Shown here piece by piece: positions 4,685 through 39,488 of a DNA stretch of 39,660 nucleotides. The notes below the pieces were generated by a model that saw nothing but the letters and a program-made list of their open reading frames with translations, searched no databases and was not told the DNA's origin. The first letter of the stretch is position 1. Each line of letters opens with the position of its first letter. This DNA is from Nitrospirota bacterium. Lineage in GTDB: Bacteria; Nitrospirota; UBA9217. The translations under genes and the position numbers were made by a program. The DNA is taken from contig JAGVOT010000130.1 of the NCBI GenBank assembly GCA_020052615.1, positions 1-39,660 of the forward strand, written 5' to 3'.

Positions 4685-4733
4685 ACGGGATCCAGGGACG
4701 TCCTGCTCCCGACGTCGCATCCCTGTCTCCCGT
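4685..4733. repeat. Inverted repeat in the nadC-birA spacer
   Basis: Arms 4685-4702 and 4711-4733 share ACGGGA, two free bases, CAGGGA and then (GA)CGTC in mirrored order, enclosing about 8 bases. There is no T tract, so it is not a canonical terminator. The units resemble the octamer repeats at 5790, 11294 and 23616 (for example ACAAGGAA at 4678), so it may be a decayed inverted pair of that family. It sits just upstream of birA, so an operator role is also conceivable. Confidence 0.5.
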
Positions 4734-4743
4734 ATCGGGGAAT

Positions 4744-5721
4744 ATGAAAAAGGAAGAGGTATTGACGCTCCTGCGGTCCTCACGCTCCGGCCATGTGTCG
4801 GGATCGGCGCTTGCCGCCGTGATGGGCGTATCCCGAACTGCTGTGTGGAAGCATGTCAAGACTCTGGAGCGCGAAGGATATGCGATCGAGGCCGTACCGT
4901 CAAAAGGATATCGCCTCACCGCGTCCCCTGACATCATTGTTGCCGGCGACGTGAAGCAGGGCCTGGGAACGAAGATCATCGGCAAAGAGATCCTGCATTA
5001 TGCGGAAGTCGCATCGACCAACACGCTTGCCATGGACCTCGCCCAAAAGGGCGCTGATGACGGCACGGTAGTGATCGCCGAGACCCAGACCGGCGGCAAG
5101 GGAAGGCTGGGCAGGTCCTGGACATCGCCGGCCGGCAACCTGTACATAAGCATGGTCCTCCGGCCGGCCGTTCCGATCTCCCAGGCGCCGCTCATCACGC
5201 TCATGGGTGCCGTTGCTGTTGCCTCCTGCCTCAGGAGGTGCTGCGGGGTACCGGCCGGGATCAAGTGGCCGAACGATATCCTCCTGTCCGGGAAAAAGGT
5301 GTCCGGTCTTCTCACCGAGATGAGCGCGGAGCCTGACCGGATCAGACATATCGTGCTCGGGATCGGAGTGAACGTGAACATGGACAGCAGGGCGCTTCAT
5401 CCCGGTGTCCGTAAGATGTCCACGTCCCTCGCTGCCGCCACGGGAAGACGCGTAGACAGGACCGCTCTCCTGAGGACCCTGCTTGCCGAGCTTGATCTCT
5501 GGTATCACCGCTTTCTGCATAACGATGAGTCGGTGCTTGCCGTGTGGAAAGAGCTGAACGTGACGCTGGGGCATCGAGTGACGGTCGACGGTGGCAGGGT
5601 AACGCTGGAGGGGTTTGCCCGCGGCGTGGATGCCGAGGGCAGGCTCATCCTCAAACTGGACGACGGAACGCTCCGGCAGGTCGCGGCCGGGGACGTGACG
5701 ATCATGAAGGAAAAGCACTGA
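4744..5721 (+). CDS. birA: Bifunctional biotin--[acetyl-CoA carboxylase] ligase / biotin operon repressor BirA
   Basis: Makes biotinyl-5'-AMP and transfers biotin to carboxylase carrier domains. Residues 1-65 form a winged helix-turn-helix (EEVLTLLRSSRSGHVSGSALA, then VSRTAVWKHVKTLEREGY), so it is probably also a DNA-binding repressor. The ligase core has the biotin/ATP loop GGKGRLGRSW (residues 117-126), KWPNDI (174-179) and GKKVSGLLTEM. The C-terminal small SH3-like domain includes DGGRVTLEGFARGVDAEGRL. The 325-residue length fits the bifunctional class. A candidate operator-like inverted repeat lies directly upstream. Adjacency to coaX is common in bacteria. Confidence 0.96.
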   Translation: MKKEEVLTLLRSSRSGHVSGSALAAVMGVSRTAVWKHVKTLEREGYAIEAVPSKGYRLTASPDIIVAGDVKQGLGTKIIGKEILHYAEVASTNTLAMDLAQKGADDGTVVIAETQTGGKGRLGRSWTSPAGNLYISMVLRPAVPISQAPLITLMGAVAVASCLRRCCGVPAGIKWPNDILLSGKKVSGLLTEMSAEPDRIRHIVLGIGVNVNMDSRALHPGVRKMSTSLAAATGRRVDRTALLRTLLAELDLWYHRFLHNDESVLAVWKELNVTLGHRVTVDGGRVTLEGFARGVDAEGRLILKLDDGTLRQVAAGDVTIMKEKH

Positions 5722-5789
5722 CGCGGCGGCACAGCGGCAAAAGAGACGCAGCGAGAGTTCCTGATTGAATTTTTTGGCTAGAGACGTTT

Positions 5790-5821
5790 CACCCCGTCCC
5801 CTTGTCGACCTGTCACCGTGT
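5790..5821. repeat. Octamer tandem repeat, four units (copy 1 of the octamer family)
   Basis: Four consecutive 8-base units, CACCCCGT, CCCCTTGT, CGACCTGT and CACCGTGT, all end in GT. On the minus strand they read as ACxxGG-type octamers matching the arrays at 11294-11317 and 23616-23679. The GTG at 5818 lies inside the last unit, which argues against using it as the coaX start. Confidence 0.7.
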
Positions 5822-11293: not shown

Positions 11294-11317
11294 TCCCTTG
11301 TCTCCCTGTCCCCGTGT
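11294..11317. repeat. Octamer tandem repeat, three units (copy 2 of the octamer family)
   Basis: Three 8-base units, TCCCTTGT, CTCCCTGT and CCCCGTGT, read on the minus strand as ACAAGGGA, ACAGGGAG and ACACGGGG. The last is identical to the commonest unit in the array at 23616-23679. It lies just beyond the bfr/uspA terminator. Confidence 0.75.
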
Positions 11318-15626: not shown

Positions 15627-17159
15627 ATGCTTGCCAAGGTCATGAGCGCTGCCGTCCTGGGCATCGATGCCTATCCCGTCGAAGTAGAGGTCGACATCGC
15701 GAGCCGCGGCCTGCCGTTCTTCTCCACCGTGGGCCTGCCCGACGCGGCGGTGAAGGAAAGCAAGGAGCGTGTCCGCGCGGCCCTCAAGAACACGGGATTC
15801 GACTTTCCCCTGAAACAGGTGGTCGTGAACCTCGCGCCAGCGGACATCAAGAAGGAAGGCTCGGCCTTCGACCTGCCTATCGCCATCGGCATGCTGATCG
15901 CCGAGGGAGTTCTCACCCAGGAGCAGGCGTCCGGGTATCTCATCGTGGGGGAGCTTGCGCTCGACGGAAGGGTAAAGCCGGTGCGGGGCGCGCTCTCCAT
16001 GGCGGTGCTCGCGAAGAACAAGGTCTGCCGGGGCATGATCCTCCCCGGGGACAACGCGCCCGAGGCGGCGGTCGTCGAGCCGGTCCCTGTCTTCGGGGTC
16101 CGGACCCTGCCGCAGGTCGTTGAATTCCTGACCGGCGCAGCGATCGTCGAACCCGAACGCATGAATGTCCGGAGCGCCTTTGAGGCGAACTCGGTGTATC
16201 AGGAGGACTTCGCCGAGGTCCGGGGGCAGGAGCATGCCAAGCGCGCCATCGAGATCGCCGCGGCCGGCGGCCATAACATCATCATGATCGGCCCCCCCGG
16301 CTCCGGCAAGACCATGCTTGCCAGGCGCCTGCCGTCCATCCTGCCGCAGATGAGCTTCGACGAGTCCATCGAAACCACCAAGATCCACAGCATCATGGGC
16401 CTCCTCCGGCAGGGCCAGCCGCTCATCGCCACGCGGCCCTATCGTTCGCCCCACCACACGATCTCCGACGCGGGGCTCATCGGCGGCGGACAGGTCCCCA
16501 AGCCCGGCGAGGTGAGCCTGTCGCACAACGGCGTACTGTTCCTGGACGAGCTGCCGGAGTTCAAGCGGAACGTCCTTGAAGCGCTCCGCCAGCCGCTTGA
16601 GGACGGCCACGTCACTATCTCCCGCGCCCTGACGTCGCTCACCTACCCGTCGTCGCTGATGCTCGTTGCCGCCATGAACCCCTGCAAGTGCGGCTTCCAC
16701 GGGGACCCTCTGCACCCGTGCCAGTGCACGTCCCACCAGGTGCAGACCTACCGCTCCCGCGTGTCGGGACCGCTCATGGACCGCATCGACATCCACATCG
16801 AGGTACCGGCCATCAAGTTCAACGAGATCTCCTCGGACGTTCCCGGAGAACCGTCGGCTGCGATCCGCGACCGCGTTACCCTCGCCCGTTCGGTCCAGCA
16901 GGCGAGGTTCAAGTCCGACGGCATTTACGCAAACGCCCATATGAAGCCCCGCCATATCCGCAAGTATTGCAGGATCGACGCCGGCTCCCAGCAGCTCATG
17001 GAGGCTGCCATGAACCGCCTCGGCCTGTCCGCCCGGGCGTACAACCGCGTGCTCAAGGTCGCCCGCACCATCGCCGACATCGAGGGCAGCGGACCCATAG
17101 CGACGGAACACATCTCCGAGGCAATACAATATAGAAGCCTGGACAGAAGGATAAGCTGA
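15627..17159 (+). CDS. comM: ComM/YifB-family Mg chelatase-like AAA+ ATPase
   Basis: A 510-residue AAA+ protein. Known ComM is a hexameric branch-migration helicase that helps integrate DNA taken up by natural transformation. Domains: N-terminal Lon-substrate-like domain (1-170, [20 protein letters not shown]), ATPase core with Walker [10 protein letters not shown] (Lys228) and Walker [10 protein letters not shown], the Cys-rich insert [19 protein letters not shown], and the C-terminal Mg-chelatase domain ending in [14 protein letters not shown]. The length is normal. The ATG at 15627 has AAGGAG upstream. No other competence genes are in the window. Confidence 0.96.
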
Positions 17160-21123: not shown

Positions 21124-23601
21124 ATGAAGGCTGCGGACGAAAGCGCTTTTGAATCCAATTACCGGGGTCTCGACAGGGAGTCCATCAAGCGGTCCCTGGT
21201 GAACCTCCTGGTCTATGCCATGGGCAAGGACCACATCATGGCCACGCACCGTGACTGGCTCAATACCACGGCCCTTGCCGTGCGTGAGAGGCTGATCGAG
21301 CGCTGGATGGAGACCATGCGGAGCTATTACCGCGCGGACGCGAAGCGGGTCTACTACCTGTCGCTTGAATTCCTGACCGGGCGGCTGCTCGTGAACAGCC
21401 TGCTCAATCTCGGCATCTACGACGCCTGCTGCGATGCCCTCGCGGACCTGGACCTGGACATCAACCGGCTCAAGGAACTGGAGAACGATGCGGCCCTGGG
21501 GAACGGCGGACTGGGCAGGCTCGCCGCCTGCTTCCTCGACTCCATGGCCACCCTGGGCCTCCCCGGGTACGGCTACGGCATCCGCTATGAATACGGCATG
21601 TTCACCCAGCGCATCGAAAAGGGCTGGCAGGTGGAGCACCCCGACAACTGGCTGCGCTACGGAAACCCCTGGGAGTTCCCGCGGCCCGAGGTGCTGTACT
21701 CGGTTAAATTCGGCGGCCGCGTGCTGGAATACAAGGACGAGCACGGCGCGCTCCATTACCATTGGATCGACACCGAGGACGTGATGGCAATGGCCTTCGA
21801 TACGCCCGTCCCGGGCTTCGGCACGGACACGGTGAACAACATGCGGCTGTGGTCGGCCAAGGCGTCGCGCGACTTCAACCTCAAGTACTTCAACGAGGGG
21901 AACTACATCCAGGCCGTGGCCGAGAAGAACGAGTCGGAGAACCTCTCGAAGGTCCTCTACCCCGACGACACGACCATCATGGGCAGGGAGCTGCGCCTCA
22001 AGCAGCAGTACTTCTTCGTGTGCGCGACGCTTCAGGATATCCTGCGCCGCTTCACCAAATACCATCCGAACCTCGATGAGCTGTCCGACGAGGTGGCCAT
22101 CCAGCTGAACGACACCCACCCGGCCATCGCCGTGCCGGAGCTGATGCGGATCCTGATCGATATCCACCATCTCGACTGGGACCGCGCCTGGAACATCACG
22201 CGGCGCACTATTTCCTACACCAATCATACGCTGATGCCCGAGGCGCTCGAAACCTGGCCGGTGCAGCTGTTCGGCGAGATCCTGCCGCGCCATCTCCAGA
22301 TCATCTACGAGATCAACCAGCGCTTTCTCGATGAAGTGCGCCACCGCTTCCCCGGAGACGCCGAACTCGTGAAGCGCGTGTCGCTCATCGACGAGACGGG
22401 GGGGCGGCGGGTGCGGATGGCGCACCTGGCCATTGTGGGAAGCCATGCCGTGAACGGCGTGTCCCGCATCCACACCGAGCTCATGAAGGAGACCATCTTC
22501 GCCGATTTCGACCGCTTCTCCCCCGGCAAGATCATCAATATCACCAACGGCATCACGCCCCGCCGCTGGCTGCACCAGGCCAATCCCGACCTGTCGAAGC
22601 TCATCACGTCGCAGCTCGGCCCCTGCTGGCTCCGGGACCTCGCCTGCCTCAAGGACCTCCGGCCCCTGGCCGACGACGCGGTATTCCGGAAGGAGTTCCG
22701 GGCGGTGAAGCAGGCGAACAAGACGCGCCTTGCCGAGAGCATCGAGGCCCGGACCAGGAGCAGGGTGAACCCGGAGTCGCTGTTCGACATACAGGCCAAG
22801 CGCATCCACGAGTACAAACGGCAGCTCCTGAACGTGCTCCACGTCATCACGCGGTATAACCGCATCCGTGAAGGCCGCGCGACGGGCATGGCGCCGCGCA
22901 CGGTCATTATCGGCGGCAAGGCCGCGCCCGGGTATTTCATGGCCAAGCTGGTCATCAGGCTCATCCACGGAGTGGCCGACGTGGTGAACCATGATCCCGC
23001 CGTGGGCGATCTCCTGAAGCTGGTGTTCCTGCCGAACTACAACGTTTCGAACGCCGAGAAGATCATTCCCGCCTGCGACCTGTCCGAACAGATCTCCACG
23101 GCCGGCACCGAGGCCTCGGGCACGGGCAATATGAAGTTCGCCCTGAACGGCGGCCTCACCATCGGCACCCTCGACGGCGCGAACGTCGAGATGAAGGAAG
23201 AGGTGGGCGAAGAGAACATCTTCATCTTCGGGCTCACGTCGGACGGCGTCGCCGAGATCCGGCAGGACGGATACGATCCGTGGCACTATTACAATACCGA
23301 TGAAGAGCTCAGACGGGCGCTGGACATGATCGCCCTGGGATTCTTCTCGCCCGATGATCCTCATCGCTTCCGGCCCATCTTCGAAGCTCTCACGGGAGGA
23401 GGGGACCATTACCTGCTGCTCGCCGACTACGGGTCCTACATCAAGGCCCAGGAGCAGGTCGATGCCCTCTACCGCGACCAGGAGGCATGGTCGCGCCGCG
23501 CGATCATGAACGTGGCGGCCATGGGGAAGTTCTCGAGCGACCGGAGCATCCTCGAATATGCAGGGAAGATCTGGAACGTGAAGCCGGTGACGCGGGGGTA
23601 G
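21124..23601 (+). CDS. glgP: Glycogen/alpha-glucan phosphorylase
   Basis: GT35 phosphorylase releasing glucose-1-phosphate from glycogen or maltodextrins. It is 825 residues, the normal size. YYLSLEFLTGRLL and the glycine-rich LGNGGLGRLAACFLDSMATL are at the N-terminus; the PLP-binding Lys671 is in EASGTGNMKFALNGG, followed by TIGTLDGANVEM. The ATG at 21124 has AAGGAGGAAG upstream; the frame extends further but without a start signal. Its product could feed the same sugar-phosphate pool as the GalT-like enzyme at 7115, but no other glycogen genes are present. An octamer array begins 15 bases after the stop. Confidence 0.97.
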   Translation: MKAADESAFESNYRGLDRESIKRSLVNLLVYAMGKDHIMATHRDWLNTTALAVRERLIERWMETMRSYYRADAKRVYYLSLEFLTGRLLVNSLLNLGIYDACCDALADLDLDINRLKELENDAALGNGGLGRLAACFLDSMATLGLPGYGYGIRYEYGMFTQRIEKGWQVEHPDNWLRYGNPWEFPRPEVLYSVKFGGRVLEYKDEHGALHYHWIDTEDVMAMAFDTPVPGFGTDTVNNMRLWSAKASRDFNLKYFNEGNYIQAVAEKNESENLSKVLYPDDTTIMGRELRLKQQYFFVCATLQDILRRFTKYHPNLDELSDEVAIQLNDTHPAIAVPELMRILIDIHHLDWDRAWNITRRTISYTNHTLMPEALETWPVQLFGEILPRHLQIIYEINQRFLDEVRHRFPGDAELVKRVSLIDETGGRRVRMAHLAIVGSHAVNGVSRIHTELMKETIFADFDRFSPGKIINITNGITPRRWLHQANPDLSKLITSQLGPCWLRDLACLKDLRPLADDAVFRKEFRAVKQANKTRLAESIEARTRSRVNPESLFDIQAKRIHEYKRQLLNVLHVITRYNRIREGRATGMAPRTVIIGGKAAPGYFMAKLVIRLIHGVADVVNHDPAVGDLLKLVFLPNYNVSNAEKIIPACDLSEQISTAGTEASGTGNMKFALNGGLTIGTLDGANVEMKEEVGEENIFIFGLTSDGVAEIRQDGYDPWHYYNTDEELRRALDMIALGFFSPDDPHRFRPIFEALTGGGDHYLLLADYGSYIKAQEQVDALYRDQEAWSRRAIMNVAAMGKFSSDRSILEYAGKIWNVKPVTRG

Positions 23602-23615
23602 CGGGAGGCAGCTCG

Positions 23616-23679
23616 ACGCGGAGACGCGGGGACGCGGGGACACGGGGACGCGGAGACACGGGGACGCGGAGACACGGGG
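23616..23679. repeat. Octamer tandem repeat, eight units (copy 3, best preserved)
   Basis: Eight gap-free units of eight bases, pattern A-C-R-C-G-G-R-G, drawn from three variants: ACGCGGAG (3), ACGCGGGG (2), ACACGGGG (3). Related units occur at 5790 and 11294. The five GGGG tracts could form a G-quadruplex on the plus strand. It lies just after glgP and before the hybrid kinase; the rest of the 258-base spacer shows no gene. Confidence 0.9.
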
Positions 23680-23859
23680 AAAAACCAGCTGAGGGCTTTT
23701 CGATACTGCGCACGGATTTGTCCCAGGTTTGTGATTCGAGGAACGAACGCATTCCCCGTAGCATTGCTGTGGGGTTAGCGAGCGATCGGGATAAGATAAT
23801 TTCCCTGAGGATCAAAGATTCCCTACAGCCTGAGAGCTTCAGCGATAAGGAACACTTCC

Positions 23860-25581
23860 ATGCTCAAACTCACCCCGCTTAAGATCGTCGGCTTGTACAT
23901 TGCTCTCAGCGTGCTGTGGATATTCAGCTCCGACATCGCCCTGGAGATGATCGCGGCGGACACGCGGGTCTATACGGTCCTGAGCATCGCGAAGGGCTGG
24001 TTCTTCATCGCGGTCACGGCCACGCTGCTGTTCGGCCTCATTCGCCGCTATGCAGCGGAGCGCGACGAGACCGAGAAGAAGCTCTGCGAATCCGAACGGC
24101 AGTGCCGTTTCGTGGTGGACCACGCCAATGACGGCATCCTGATCGCCCAGGACGGCATGCTGCGCTTCGTGAACCCCCGCATGGCGGAGATCACGGGATA
24201 TACGGAGGAGGAGCTCCTTGCCCGTCCGTTCGTCGATTTTCTGCACCCCGAGGACCGGCAAATGGTCTTCGACCGGCATATGCAGCGGATGCGCGGCGAA
24301 CTCGACCACGCGTTTTCCTATACCTTCCGGCTGTTGGCGAAAAATGGCCGCACTGTCTGGGTCGAGACCCGGGGCGCGGTCAGCACCTGGAACGGGAAGC
24401 CGGCGACGATCAATTTCCTCTCCGACATCACGGATCGGAAGCGGGCAACGGAGGAACTTATGCGCTCCGAGAAGCTCCGGTCGGTGGGTGTCCTGGCCGG
24501 CGGCATCGCCCACGACTTCAACAATATCCTGACCGCGATCCTGGCGAACGTCTCGTTCGCGCGAACGCAGCTCGGGGCCGGGAGCACTGCGGCGGACCGG
24601 TTGATGGAAGCCGAAAAGGCGTCGCTTCGCGCCCGCGAGCTGACGAGACAGCTGCTTACCTTCTCCCGGGGCGGCGCGCCGGTGCGCAAGACCATCATCC
24701 TCGCCGGGCTCATCCGCGAGAGCGCGACCCTGGCGCTGCGCGGCAGCGGGACCGCCTGCGAGTTCGCGATAGCCGGGGACCTCTGGCCCATCGAGGCCGA
24801 CGAAGGCCAGATCGGCCAGGTGATCAACAATCTGGTGATCAACGCGAGCCATGCCATGGCGCGAGGCGGCACCGTCAGGGTGGCTGCCGGCAACGTCGTT
24901 GTCAGCCGGCAGGAAAACCTTGCTATTGCCGACGGAAGGTATGTGATGCTCTCCGTGTCGGACAGGGGCGCCGGCATCCCGGAGGAGCACCGCTCCCGCA
25001 TCTTCGACCCCTATTTCACCACAAAGCAGGAGGGCAGCGGCCTCGGCCTGGCGGTGTGCTATTCCATCGTGCTGAACCACGGCGGCATCATCGCCGTGGA
25101 TTCAAAGCTCGGCGCCGGCTCCCTGTTCACGGTCTATCTTCCCGCAACGGACAAGGCCGTTGTCCCGGGGCAGGAGGACGGGCCCGAACTCATACCCGGA
25201 AGCGGCAGGGTCCTTGTCATGGACGATGAGGCGATGGTGCGGGACGTCGCCGGCGAGATCATCCGGTCCCTCGGCTACGAGGTCAGCGCCGCGAAGGACG
25301 GCAGGGAGGCAGTAGAGCTTTACCGTCGCTCGATGCAGGAGGGCAGGCCTTTCGACGTCCTGATCATGGACCTGACGGTGCAGGGAGGCATGGGCGGCCG
25401 GGACGCGATCCGCGAACTGATCTCGCTCGACCCCAACGTGCGGGCCATTGTCTCGAGCGGCTACCACAACGACCCGATCATGGCGCACTACCGCGAGTAC
25501 GGGTTCCAGGACGTCATCGCGAAGCCCTATGACGCCGCATCGCTGAGCAAAGCGCTCGCCCGGATCCTCGGCCGGTCCTGA
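23860..25581 (+). CDS. Membrane-bound hybrid histidine kinase (PAS-HisKA-HATPase-REC)
   Basis: A 573-residue hybrid sensor. Two membrane helices (about 9-30 and 43-62) bracket a very short outer loop. A PAS domain spans about 80-205 (FVVDHANDGILIAQDG, VNPRMAEITGYTEEELL). HisKA has His218 in GGIAHDFNNILTAI, the HWE/NtrB-like form with DFNN. The ATPase domain has INNLVINASHAM, DRGAGIPEEH and GSGLGLAVCYSIV. A C-terminal receiver (about 445-573) has Asp504 as acceptor in LIMDLTVQGGMGG. Phosphorelay to an unknown partner is likely. The signal is probably sensed by the cytoplasmic PAS domain. No target gene is adjacent. Confidence 0.94.
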   Translation: MLKLTPLKIVGLYIALSVLWIFSSDIALEMIAADTRVYTVLSIAKGWFFIAVTATLLFGLIRRYAAERDETEKKLCESERQCRFVVDHANDGILIAQDGMLRFVNPRMAEITGYTEEELLARPFVDFLHPEDRQMVFDRHMQRMRGELDHAFSYTFRLLAKNGRTVWVETRGAVSTWNGKPATINFLSDITDRKRATEELMRSEKLRSVGVLAGGIAHDFNNILTAILANVSFARTQLGAGSTAADRLMEAEKASLRARELTRQLLTFSRGGAPVRKTIILAGLIRESATLALRGSGTACEFAIAGDLWPIEADEGQIGQVINNLVINASHAMARGGTVRVAAGNVVVSRQENLAIADGRYVMLSVSDRGAGIPEEHRSRIFDPYFTTKQEGSGLGLAVCYSIVLNHGGIIAVDSKLGAGSLFTVYLPATDKAVVPGQEDGPELIPGSGRVLVMDDEAMVRDVAGEIIRSLGYEVSAAKDGREAVELYRRSMQEGRPFDVLIMDLTVQGGMGGRDAIRELISLDPNVRAIVSSGYHNDPIMAHYREYGFQDVIAKPYDAASLSKALARILGRS

Positions 25582-25791
25582 CCAGCAGCACGATCCTGGA
25601 TTCTCCGTAAGCAAGAAGTAATTCCTGAAGCTGAGCGGCGCGCACGATTAAGCCGGATTGCAGTCTACGCCATGAACACCGCAACGGTGCCACTGGATTC
25701 AATTGAACGCTACGAAGTATATTCCGCTTCGCTTAAATCCAGCGCGTGCATTATTCCTGCAGGCTGGTAAAGAACAGAATTTTGTGTTTTA

Positions 25792-25809
25792 CTAGCCGCA
25801 CGCGGCTAG
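25792..25809. repeat. Short perfect hairpin before the cassette
   Basis: CTAGCCG and CGGCTAG enclose CACG. There is no T run after it. It sits 11 bases before the cassette boundary core at 25820. The wider spacer 25582-25844 shows no gene. Confidence 0.4.
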
Positions 25810-25820
25810 ACATACACTGG

Positions 25821-26314
25821 TTAGATTTTACGAGGAACTAATATATGATATGGTTTATAGCTGAACTTCTTATTGAAATGCGTATTGAAAAAGAACCGCG
25901 CAATGTCGTTCACGTTAATTCCCACCTAATTCGCGCAAAAACGAATGCCGATGCCAAACGAAAAGCAAAAGAGATCGGAAAGCAAAGCTCTAATTCTTAC
26001 AAGAATACCGATGGAAAGAACATTAAGGTGCGATTTCGAGGAATTAGAGATTTATTTGAACTGCCCGAAGGGATTGAAGACGGTGCTGAAATCCTGTGGG
26101 AAGAGCATATTGGACTTACAGAGAGCAAAATCAAGTCATGGCTACGGCCTACTTCAAAGAAAAGCAAATCTCGCTGTAATATTCCCAACTATATGCCTGA
26201 AAGCGTAATGAAGGACCTTGAGAAGGCGGGCTTTGGTCGCAAAGAACTGATGCACAGATAAATCTAACAAGTCGTTCGAGTCCCGCGCGCTGCGGCGCGG
26301 GGCTCAACTCGTCG
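25821..26314 (+). mobile_element. Integron-type gene cassette (DUF4288 gene plus attC)
   Basis: The left boundary is a core site GTTAGAT (25820-25826) and the right boundary is inside GTTAATT (26314-26320), cutting after the G as integron integrases do. The cassette's own attC begins with ATCTAAC (26262-26268), the exact complement of the left core. This is the diagnostic relation expected when the cassette is circularised. It holds one short gene in the usual orientation with a minimal 5' leader. No integrase gene is in the window. Confidence 0.75.
25845..26261 (+). CDS. DUF4288-like hypothetical protein, cassette-borne
   Basis: A 138-residue protein, A+T-rich compared with its neighbours. 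The N-terminus (MIWFIAELLIEMRIEKE) and the region AKTNADAKRKAKEIGKQ followed by VRFRGIRDLFEL resemble DUF4288 proteins; that is recognition by eye. The C-terminus is basic (RPTSKKSKSRCNIPNYMPE). No signal peptide or catalytic motif is apparent; function unknown. The stop codon lies directly against the attC site, as is common in integron cassettes. Confidence 0.72.
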   Translation: MIWFIAELLIEMRIEKEPRNVVHVNSHLIRAKTNADAKRKAKEIGKQSSNSYKNTDGKNIKVRFRGIRDLFELPEGIEDGAEILWEEHIGLTESKIKSWLRPTSKKSKSRCNIPNYMPESVMKDLEKAGFGRKELMHR

Positions 26315-26320
26315 TTAATT
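26262..26320 (+). mobile_element. attC recombination site
   Basis: A 59-base imperfect palindrome. The outer cores are ATCTAAC and GTTAATT. The inner pair is GTTCGAG (26274-26280) against CTCAAC (26303-26308), which pair only if one C is left out, giving the extrahelical base typical of attC. The terminal hairpin CCCGCGC/GCGCGGG has a six-base loop. All elements of a folded attC are present and the size is the minimal type. Confidence 0.82.
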
Positions 26321-26323
26321 CCT

Positions 26324-26719
26324 ATGAAAAAGACATCCTTGATTATGATCATCGTTATTGGGTGCGTGCTCGGACTGCTGGCGTATTGTGAGCACACAGA
26401 AAATCCCACCTCATATTTCGCGACTTACAACGAGGCAAAGTCATCGGGCATAATGGACCGTGGTTGGATTCCAACGTATATTCCGCAATCTTCAACTGAA
26501 ATCAGAGAAACACATAGCATTGATACCAATCGGGTTCAAATGACCTTTAAATATTTCGTCGGAGATACAAAAGAATTAGAAAAGAACTGCACCACACAGA
26601 AGATGTCAGAGAACTTAACTCAGTATAAATGCAGCTACTTTGAGTCTGATGTCATTGTTGAGCTATTGTCCAACGGCTCCGGCAAACTAGCAAGCCAGCC
26701 CAAAGAAAAGAAGAATTAG
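26324..26719 (+). CDS. Small exported or lipoprotein-like protein of unknown function, cassette-borne
   Basis: A 131-residue protein beginning four bases after the attC site. The N-terminus has KK, a hydrophobic stretch SLIMIIVIGCVLGLLAYC and a Cys at residue 22, so it is either a lipoprotein (LAYC as a loose lipobox) or membrane-anchored. The outer part has SYFATYNEAKSSGIMDRGWIPTYIP, which I recall from small proteins often found in integron arrays, and two further Cys that could form a disulfide. Composition is A+T-rich. The precise function is unknown. Confidence 0.75.
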   Translation: MKKTSLIMIIVIGCVLGLLAYCEHTENPTSYFATYNEAKSSGIMDRGWIPTYIPQSSTEIRETHSIDTNRVQMTFKYFVGDTKELEKNCTTQKMSENLTQYKCSYFESDVIVELLSNGSGKLASQPKEKKN

Positions 26720-26799
26720 CCAACGTCTCGACATCGACTCGCCAAAAAGCGGCGAGTCAGCGCCGCGTCATACCACTTGCGTCTTTAAATAAGTTATGC
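26718..26799 (+). mobile_element. Possible second, degenerate attC-like site
   Basis: AGCCAAC (26718-26724) just after the stop and GTTATGC (26793-26799) resemble attC cores. A stem GACTCGCC/GGCGAGTC sits between. The inner arm pair with an extrahelical base is not evident and the outer cores are only partly complementary, so it may be decayed or recombined. Confidence 0.4.
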
Positions 26800-26884
26800 G
26801 TCATGTCCAGCCGCCGTATCCGGCTCTGGAAATTCGATCAAGCGGTGCTTGAACTTTTCATGTAACGTCACACAGGGAGATCTT

Positions 26885-27442
26885 ATGAGAAGGGTTGTTT
26901 TTGCGATCAATATCACCACTGACGGGTACTGCAACCACACGGACATGATTGCCGACGACGCGGTGCACGAGTACTTCACCAGGCTGCTGCGCAATGCGAA
27001 TCTCCTCCTGTTCGGCCGGAAAACATATCAACTCATGGTACCCTATTGGCCCGAAATCGCCAAAAACCAATCTGAGGATGAAGCAACCAATGAGTTCGCC
27101 CGCGTGTTCGACTCTCTCGACAAGGTCGTATTCTCCACGACATTGAAACAGGTCGAAGGAAAGAATACGAGGATCGTGCGTGCCAACCTTGCGGAAGAAG
27201 TGCTCGCGCTGAAGCAGCAGCCCGGAAAGGACATTTGCATAGGCAGTCTGAGCATTGCGTCCCAGCTTTCGGAGCGCGGTTTGATCGACGAGTATCGTTT
27301 CGTGGTCCATCCGGTTGTTGCCGGAAAAGGACCGCGGTTATTCGAAACCGTGAAGCCCCAGGACAGTCTCCGGCTTGATTTTATTGGTTTGGAAACCTTT
27401 CAATCCGGCGTCGTTGCCCTTCACTACAGAAAGCATACGTGA
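26885..27442 (+). CDS. Dihydrofolate reductase-like (RibD C-terminal) family protein
   Basis: A 185-residue RibD_C / DHFR-fold protein. [17 protein letters not shown] corresponds to the first strand and substrate loop; [42 protein letters not shown], the nucleotide-binding glycine block [35 protein letters not shown], and a terminal strand are in the family order. It probably binds NADPH; the substrate is unknown. GGGAG precedes the ATG at 26885. Such genes are frequent integron passengers, but no attC follows it here, so membership in the cassette run is unproven. Composition is intermediate. Confidence 0.87.
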
Positions 27443-27590
27443 GCCGAAACGCAAACGAAGATAGGTTGTGATCAAGAATTTACCACGACGCACCGGCTAG
27501 CCGGTCTCAAGCCGACCCCGCCCACAGCGCCCGGGTGCAGTCATCAAGTCTGCCTGAGGTCATCAATATGAATTTTGCACCGTTCAGCCG

Positions 27591-33451: not shown

Positions 33452-33486
33452 ATTGCGGATTGCGGATTTCGGACCGCGGATTGGGA
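33452..33486. repeat. Heptamer tandem repeat, five units, at the lolA 5' end
   Basis: Units ATTGCGG (twice), ATTTCGG, ACCGCGG and ATTGGGA run without gaps, starting five bases after the ftsK stop. They lie inside the longest lolA frame and would encode its first residues if an upstream ATG were used. Confidence 0.85.
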
Positions 33487-36087: not shown

Positions 36088-36455
36088 AGAACGTCCTGAT
36101 CGTCGAGGATTCCAAGGCCATCCGTTCGCTGATCCGCATAGCCTTGGAAGAGGCAGGCGGTTTTTTCACCTCCGAAGCGAACAACGGGTTCGAGGCGCTC
36201 AAGACGCTGCCGAGCCGCAAATTCGACCTCATCATCACCGACATCAACATGCCGGACATCAACGGCCTGGAGCTCATCGGGTTCGTGAAGTCCAATCAGT
36301 CGTATCGGGACATCCCGCTCATCATCGTAAGCACCGAGAAGAGCGAAGAGGACAAAAAGCGGGGCATGGCGCTGGGGGCCATGGGCTACATCGTGAAACC
36401 CTTCCGAAAGGAAGATCTCATGGCGCTGGTGAACAAGGCGGTGGGAGGGAAATGA
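36084..36455 (+). CDS. CheY-like response regulator
   Basis: A stand-alone receiver of 123 residues with acidic Glu8/Asp9, phospho-acceptor Asp53 (IITDINMPDINGLEL), Ser83 in place of the commoner Thr, and Lys105 (YIVKPF). The end RKEDLMALVNKAVG is typical of chemotaxis-type CheY. It overlaps the PATAN-GAF gene by four bases and precedes the CheA-like kinase after a hairpin-forming heptamer spacer, so it is the likely phosphoryl acceptor of that kinase. Confidence 0.95.
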   Translation: MKNVLIVEDSKAIRSLIRIALEEAGGFFTSEANNGFEALKTLPSRKFDLIITDINMPDINGLELIGFVKSNQSYRDIPLIIVSTEKSEEDKKRGMALGAMGYIVKPFRKEDLMALVNKAVGGK

Positions 36456-36456
36456 C

Positions 36457-36534
36457 AGTGCGGAGTGCGGAGTGCGAAGTAAAGATTTACGTCGTTGTTT
36501 TTCACTCCGCACTTCGCACTCCGCACTCCGCACT
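36457..36534. repeat. Heptamer arrays forming a perfect 24-bp inverted repeat
   Basis: The left arm 36457-36480 is three AGTGCGG-type units (the third is AGTGCGA) plus AGT. The right side 36503-36534 carries CCGCACT-type units in opposite orientation. Bases 36511-36534 are the exact reverse complement of 36457-36480, including the variant unit. The loop is 30 bases. It fills the spacer between the cheY-like and cheA-like genes of one operon. Confidence 0.92.
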
Positions 36535-36542
36535 CGAAACAT

Positions 36543-38529: not shown

Positions 38530-38602
38530 GGACAGACATCAGACAACAGACACGGCCCGCTGCTTAGGTCTGACCTCTGATCGTCTGTCATCTGCGGTCT
38601 GA
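38530..38602. repeat. Inverted pair of heptamer arrays between cheA-like and exeA-like genes
   Basis: Left arm 38530-38550: GGACAGA, CATCAGA, CAACAGA. Right arm 38568-38602: GTCTGAC, CTCTGAT, CGTCTGT, CATCTGC, GGTCTGA, which is the CAGA-type unit in the opposite orientation. It fills the spacer, and the next ATG (38607) follows with no Shine-Dalgarno sequence. Confidence 0.82.
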
Positions 38603-39460: not shown

Positions 39461-39488
39461 TGTGCAGTCTGCAGTCTGCAATTTTCAA
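39461..39488. repeat. Heptamer tandem repeat before the last gene
   Basis: Units TGTGCAG, TCTGCAG and TCTGCAA, then a degenerate TTTTCAA. Weaker heptamer phasing may extend left to about 39435. The last gene begins at its right edge. Confidence 0.7.

Follow-up and report, generated by a model that had tools for sequence, protein, structure and literature searches.

To our knowledge, dispersed bacterial repeats with units of 7-8 nucleotides have been described for decades, and their recurrence at distant sites and in unrelated phyla has had no explanation; similarly, we know of no function for IVP (S23p) and GxxExxY, both of which are common proteins. REPINs are short inverted elements present in many gene-less copies per genome; a single-copy gene with these repeats on either side is believed to mobilise them in trans. 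In Coxiella, the intervening sequence (IVS) of the 23S rRNA contains three to four GACAGAT heptamers beside the S23p gene, and RNase III cuts this IVS out (PMC4990558). Dispersed heptamer repeats are known from Xanthomonas (GGGAATC) and Nostoc (GGGGA(C/T)T) (Rehm et al. 2015, PMC4692102), where no general association with mobile elements was reported.

The window, that is, the whole stretch of 39.7 kb analysed here, contains exactly three octamer arrays and no others according to a unit-scoring scan. The longest one (positions 23616-23679, plus strand, 14 bp 3' of a glycogen/carbohydrate phosphorylase gene) consists of eight gap-free units ACRCGGRG, as described in the initial annotation, and is also called by TRF (23615-23680, period 8, 8.2 copies). 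No minus-strand partner was found for it, and it is classed as a candidate orphan arm. Another candidate orphan arm consists of three minus-strand units at 11294-11317, with a ferritin-like/rubrerythrin-like gene on one side and a universal stress protein gene on the other; a strong palindromic hairpin immediately precedes them. Four degenerate minus-strand units at 5790-5821, in the birA-coaX spacer, form the right arm of an inverted pair, whose degenerate left arm (ACGCGGCG GCACAGCG ... ACGCAGCG; 5721-5757, plus strand) begins at the stop codon of birA. The left arm was identified by alignment to a clear plus-strand arm in the sister species G001, and when the RNA is folded it forms base pairs with 5790-5821. 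The three-unit sequence ACNNGGNG is matched with 0 mismatches at 23616-23679, with 1 at 11294-11317 (minus strand) and with 1 in each of the matches at 5790-5821 (minus strand). With at most two mismatches, the window contains nine such matches, where 0.23 would be expected and 100 shuffles never yielded as many. All three arrays belong to one family. A possible relic of the same family had been suggested at 4685-4733; the corresponding spacer of the sister species contains nothing that matches it, and the relic is not counted.

The whole genome (3.99 Mb in 135 contigs) contains 28+29 exact matches of the two-unit pattern ACRCGGRGACRCGGRG in the two orientations, whereas the reversed control pattern has 0+0. 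If one mismatch is allowed, the numbers are 84+73 and 8+7, respectively. The sampled DNA of this genome (1.1 Mb) was mostly picked around array matches, and the enrichment figures come from two large unselected contigs (C76 and C66, 366 kb in total). They contain 14 arrays, compared to 2-3 arrays per 2 Mb in a Markov background, or about half of one in 366 kb. Thus period-8 arrays exceed chance expectation both by exact matches (57 against 0) and by density (14 against about 0.5), and a dispersed family occurring genome-wide in both orientations, as proposed from the window alone, is confirmed. The strong arrays overlap crudely called ORFs in 17 of 68 cases (25%), compared to 78% for random 24-mers. 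Short head-to-tail units at many, mostly intergenic loci agree with the suggested STRR-like character; "always outside genes" has to be weakened to "mostly", as some arrays enter the tails of ORFs. CRISPR was considered and rejected, as in the initial annotation: the units are gap-free, without unique spacers of similar length.

Among the relatives, ACRCGGRGACRCGGRG has 34+48 matches in the sister species G001, 8+4 in G002 and 0-10 in other members of the family, while 47 genomes from other families of the phylum contain one match in total. In G027, which belongs to another family, the reversed pattern is not neutral: this genome contains 48+61 matches to it, and an IVP gene there has inverted arms of a sibling CACAGAGG-type repeat. 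IVP genes bounded by such octamers occur in G027 and also in G035 (loci L282 and L288).

Three exact units occur in at least 114 stretches from GTDB species genomes, and the matches listed come from Cyanobacteria, Sphingomonadales, Chloroflexi, Acidobacteria, Planctomycetes, Verrucomicrobia, Gemmatimonadetes, Bacteroidales and other groups. Among the matches listed from other phyla, neighbouring arrays at distances up to 1.5 kb have the orientation plus-minus in 44 cases, minus-plus in 6 cases, and lie on the same strand in 4. In the own genome, with a looser threshold and neighbours within 800 bp, 12 pairs are plus-minus, none is minus-plus and 2 lie on the same strand. Thus the purine-rich strand points inward from both ends of a pair. 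The gaps between paired arrays are mostly 17-170 bp long and contain no ORF. Most window-type arrays of the own genome have no partner.

One pair on contig C44 of the own genome, 16577-16608 (plus) and 17076-17119 (minus), encloses a gene (16667-16981). Its product of 130 amino acids matches PF05635 (23S_rRNA_IVP, a four-helix bundle; E-value 5.5e-32) and TIGR02436 (E-value 1.4e-30); the solved homologues of IVP, 2gsc (the Xanthomonas protein XCC0516) and 2rld, have no assigned function. This cassette is kept in the sister species. It is IVS-like rather than an IVS, because it is flanked by two protein-coding genes. Pairs of the sibling unit CCACAGAG on contigs C4 and C76 enclose GxxExxY genes (PF13366 PDDEXK_3, TIGR04256). 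On C4 (1192-3174), two GxxExxY cassettes with different arms flank nuoJ inside one nuo operon.

Arms of this kind can be recognised irrespective of the unit by local alignment of the 150 bp upstream of a gene with the reverse complement of the 150 bp downstream, a score of at least 28 being required. In the own genome and its relatives, 17 of 24 IVP genes and 22 of 30 GxxExxY genes have such arms (39 of 54 together), compared to 6 of 3000 random placements and none of 232 shifted placements in the same loci. In 20 genomes from other phyla, the arms were found at 12 of 20 IVP and 14 of 22 GxxExxY genes (26 of 42), and at none of 168 shifted placements. Approximately 30-40% of the IVP and GxxExxY genes have no arms by this measure. 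A GxxExxY gene lies between fabD and fabG on a Sphingomonas plasmid, and the arms of one IVP gene in Nostoc calcicola (L400) are made of GGGGACT, as is the Nostoc repeat of Rehm et al. (PMC4692102). Two nearly identical IVP genes of G026 (L330 and L331) adjoin CRISPR-like repeat arrays (GTTTCAGTCCCGCGAACGG...), and for this reason gave no element borders.

The repeat unit varies from cassette to cassette and is identical in both arms of one cassette. The period of the arms of IVP genes (n=33) is 7 in 22 cases, 8 in 6 and 9 in 2. The arms of GxxExxY genes (n=44) have period 8 in 13 cases, 9 in 9 and 10 in 4, with the remainder irregular, and never have period 7.

Per arm, the own cassettes have 10.4 dispersed sites in 1.1 Mb of own DNA; foreign arms have about 3, and shuffled arms 1.0. 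For the C44 arm the number, 24 sites, is inflated, because the sampled stretches were picked for the octamer; this selection does not inflate the 23 sites counted for AGTGCGG, the arm unit of an IVP gene on contig C101. The AGTGCGG/CACTCCG unit is the commonest short tandem repeat family in the sampled DNA (36 arrays in 1.1 Mb). It is also present in the window, as another family of the same class, in an inverted pair detected by TRF at 36457-36535 ((AGTGCGG)3.4 at 36457-36480 and (CACTCCG)4.7 at 36503-36535), and the same unit bounds the IVP gene at C101:72084. Further period-7 arrays of the window at 33452-33483, 38532-38552 and 39463-39480 (ATTGCGG, ACAGACA and TGCAGTC) are probably arms of other such cassettes.

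On the tree of 37 IVP proteins, the distribution of period-8 arms requires 3 changes compared to 9.6 for shuffled labels, and none of 500 shuffles gave as few. After removal of near-copies and long branches the numbers are 2 and 7.2. Both octamer IVPs of the own genome fall into one clade (100/96) with those of Bacteroidales and Cyanobacteria, and the arms in this clade are G-rich and mostly octameric. Among plasmid relatives, the one closest to the C44 IVP (67% amino acid identity, Leptolyngbya) likewise has ACGCGGAG-type octamer arms; the plasmid collection contains relatives, but no close pairs suited to empty-site comparison. Judging by the tree, the octamer arms follow the IVP subclade across phyla. 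Shared inheritance accounts for part of this link between unit and protein, and the correlation need not mean recognition. Since the period is kept across phyla even as the unit changes by mutation, protein and arm seem to belong together. The initial annotation assigned the arrays to the right class, STRRs, but stopped at a lone STRR of no known function and missed the inverted pairs, the enclosed IVP gene, the recurrence of this architecture with other units around IVP and GxxExxY genes of many phyla, and the link between unit length and IVP clade.

From these sequence comparisons we conclude that the cassette type to which the window arrays would belong is related to 23S rRNA IVSs. With moderate confidence, we interpret the octamer arrays of the window as mostly gene-less or orphan arms of small IVP/GxxExxY cassettes, probably spread in trans by the cassette protein. 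A cassette consists of two inverted short-tandem-repeat arrays with the purine-rich strand pointing inward. When complete, it also contains a single small gene, flanked by the two arrays and encoding either IVP, a four-helix bundle, or GxxExxY, a PD-(D/E)XK-like protein. The arms may fold into a long hairpin or a cruciform, or they may pair as RNA in the manner of 23S rRNA IVSs. Recognising its own arm repeat, the protein of the cassette would carry copies with and without the gene in trans to intergenic and operon spacers, where slippage during replication and point mutations would then remodel the arrays. GxxExxY belongs to a nuclease superfamily, and this kinship would fit the cutting of hairpin or cruciform structures formed by the arms. 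The likely source of the window octamer is the IVP subclade of the C44 gene (16667-16981). A simple picture of two ends plus a gene does not account for the window-type arrays, which are mostly partnerless.

The similarity to 23S rRNA IVSs comprises the protein family (PF05635 / TIGR02436), the inverted termini with a long stem and the single small ORF; termini that could form such a stem are present in the C44 cassette and at most IVP genes, and the window arrays themselves are gene-less. Unlike IVSs, the closely examined cassettes reside in intergenic or operon spacers and not in 23S rRNA helices (helix 25 or 45), they end in tandem arrays, one genome contains many scattered copies that lack the gene, and a second gene family, GxxExxY, uses the same kind of cassette. 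With the heptamers of Xanthomonas and Nostoc and the STRRs of cyanobacteria the arrays share dispersed intergenic location, short tandem units and variable unit number, and convergent inverted pairs were also reported for Xanthomonas (PMC4692102); however, the unit here has 8 nucleotides and is tied to IVP/GxxExxY cassettes. The TAACTGA repeats of Beggiatoaceae (PMC4679880) are likewise dispersed, with patchy spread across phyla and no known mechanism, but they have one fixed heptamer, are almost never inverted and lie just upstream of start codons. Inverted pairs of short repeats dispersed in the own genome are also a property of the REPIN/RAYT system (PMC3116915), but RAYTs are Y1-HUH transposases and REPs are palindromes rather than tandem arrays, while the genes found flanked by the repeats here encode IVP and GxxExxY, which are unrelated to RAYTs and have no known transposase activity. 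No paper linking such repeats to IVP or GxxExxY was found in the open-access full-text literature, and a text search for the repeat letters yielded none.

An unlikely alternative is that the arrays are selected structural or regulatory elements, such as UTR hairpins or G-quadruplexes tuning the processing or stability of transcripts, as could be the case for the heptamers of Xanthomonas and Nostoc. Indeed, the positions are mostly kept between two species: in the own genome and G001, 15 of 18 comparable arrays share position, an upper bound, as the stretches of the sister species were picked for arrays; thus any spread would be slow or old. The paired forms fold strongly, with a 24-bp stem at 36450-36540 (-49.5 kcal/mol, z-score -8.5) and a z-score of -2.9 for the birA-coaX spacer of G001, which contains a clear inverted pair (plus arm ACGCGGCGACACGGAGACGCGGGG, minus arm ACACGGTGACAGGGGGACAAGGAG). 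The z-score of the degenerate birA-coaX pair of the window is -0.7, its overall stability being no higher than that of shuffles. GGGG runs recur at 8-base spacing, and Rehm et al. reported arrays of heptamers and convergent pairs, as well as in vitro folding into G4 (PMC4692102). However, although some octamer arrays have four consecutive tracts of at least three G, in many units the tract is broken (GGAG). Selection for structure also leaves the enclosed genes unexplained, and it does not agree with the variation of one operon spacer from nothing to several unrelated arms between related genera. The nuoJ-nuoK spacer contains a GxxExxY cassette with CCACAGAG-type arms in the own genome, G002 and G012, a gene-less AAGGTGGG hairpin in G001, and TGCAAAA arms nested within CCACGGAG arms in G005 (L317), and is nearly empty in G010. 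This spacer can thus be filled, filled differently or empty, in species too distant for target-site duplications to be read.

Elements are nested at L224 (16699-17038) and L317, where the loop of one inverted-repeat pair holds a second pair built from another unit. It looks as if insertion prefers hairpin loops.

The array orthologous to 11294-11317 has four units in G001 instead of three, the difference being an exact 8-nt indel. Slippage acts at existing array sites, by whole units. The claim that the family is not simple slippage of one site holds as far as genome-wide dispersal is concerned, but slippage does operate at the sites already occupied. This indel, the decay of the unit sequence within arrays and the many arrays having neither partner nor gene would be expected of plain simple-sequence repeats growing by slippage and spreading by recombination, with the IVP and GxxExxY genes as mere bystanders. 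We consider this improbable, since it predicts neither the excess of inward pairs (44:6 among the matches listed from other phyla, and 12:0 in the own genome), nor the arms at 39 of 54 and 26 of 42 IVP/GxxExxY genes against almost none elsewhere, nor the arm period tracking the IVP clade, and it is largely contradicted by these data. An element acting at the RNA level, excised by RNase III from polycistronic mRNA at the arm stem, with the protein binding the stem and any movement proceeding via RNA and reverse transcriptase, is a still more doubtful possibility, for orphan single arms are unexpected from an RNA stem, even though the protein family and the terminal stem are as in IVSs, the Coxiella IVS with (GACAGAT)3-4 upstream of the S23p gene is excised by RNase III (PMC4990558), cassettes occupy operon spacers such as nuoJ-nuoK and fabD-fabG, and the own IVP is weakly similar to Avd, the accessory protein of DGRs.

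If the arrays are arms of cassettes spread in trans, the interpretation may be extended, tentatively and with slightly less than even expectation, to a widespread unrecognised class of mobile elements. The ends of these elements would be inverted short-repeat arrays with a unit set by their own IVP or GxxExxY. A large share of bacterial 7-10-mer short tandem repeats, at least one classic cyanobacterial STRR family among them, would derive from copies that are orphaned or lack the gene. The link between the repeats and IVP/GxxExxY makes both puzzles testable, because it predicts that each protein binds, cuts or moves the repeat of its own arms. It connects "junk" repeats with two families of uncharacterised proteins, which may recognise these repeats or spread them, and it offers an explanation of 23S rRNA IVSs as one niche of a broader family.

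The array at 23616-23679 is missing from G001. It opens a 3.9-kb block (23600-27541) with genes for a histidine kinase, a DUF4288 protein and a RibD_C protein, and this adjoining block is replaced in G001 by an unrelated block of about 1 kb. Synteny here was taken from the DNA of the sister species; the histidine kinase gene (23860-25581) has paralogues.

A 23-nt motif, CCAAAAGTAGGCGCTTCTAAGCG, is frequently found between octamer units and occurs exactly at many loci of the own genome and the sister species, including L191, L205, L206, L190, L230 and L345 (11756-11778). It contains a short internal hairpin.
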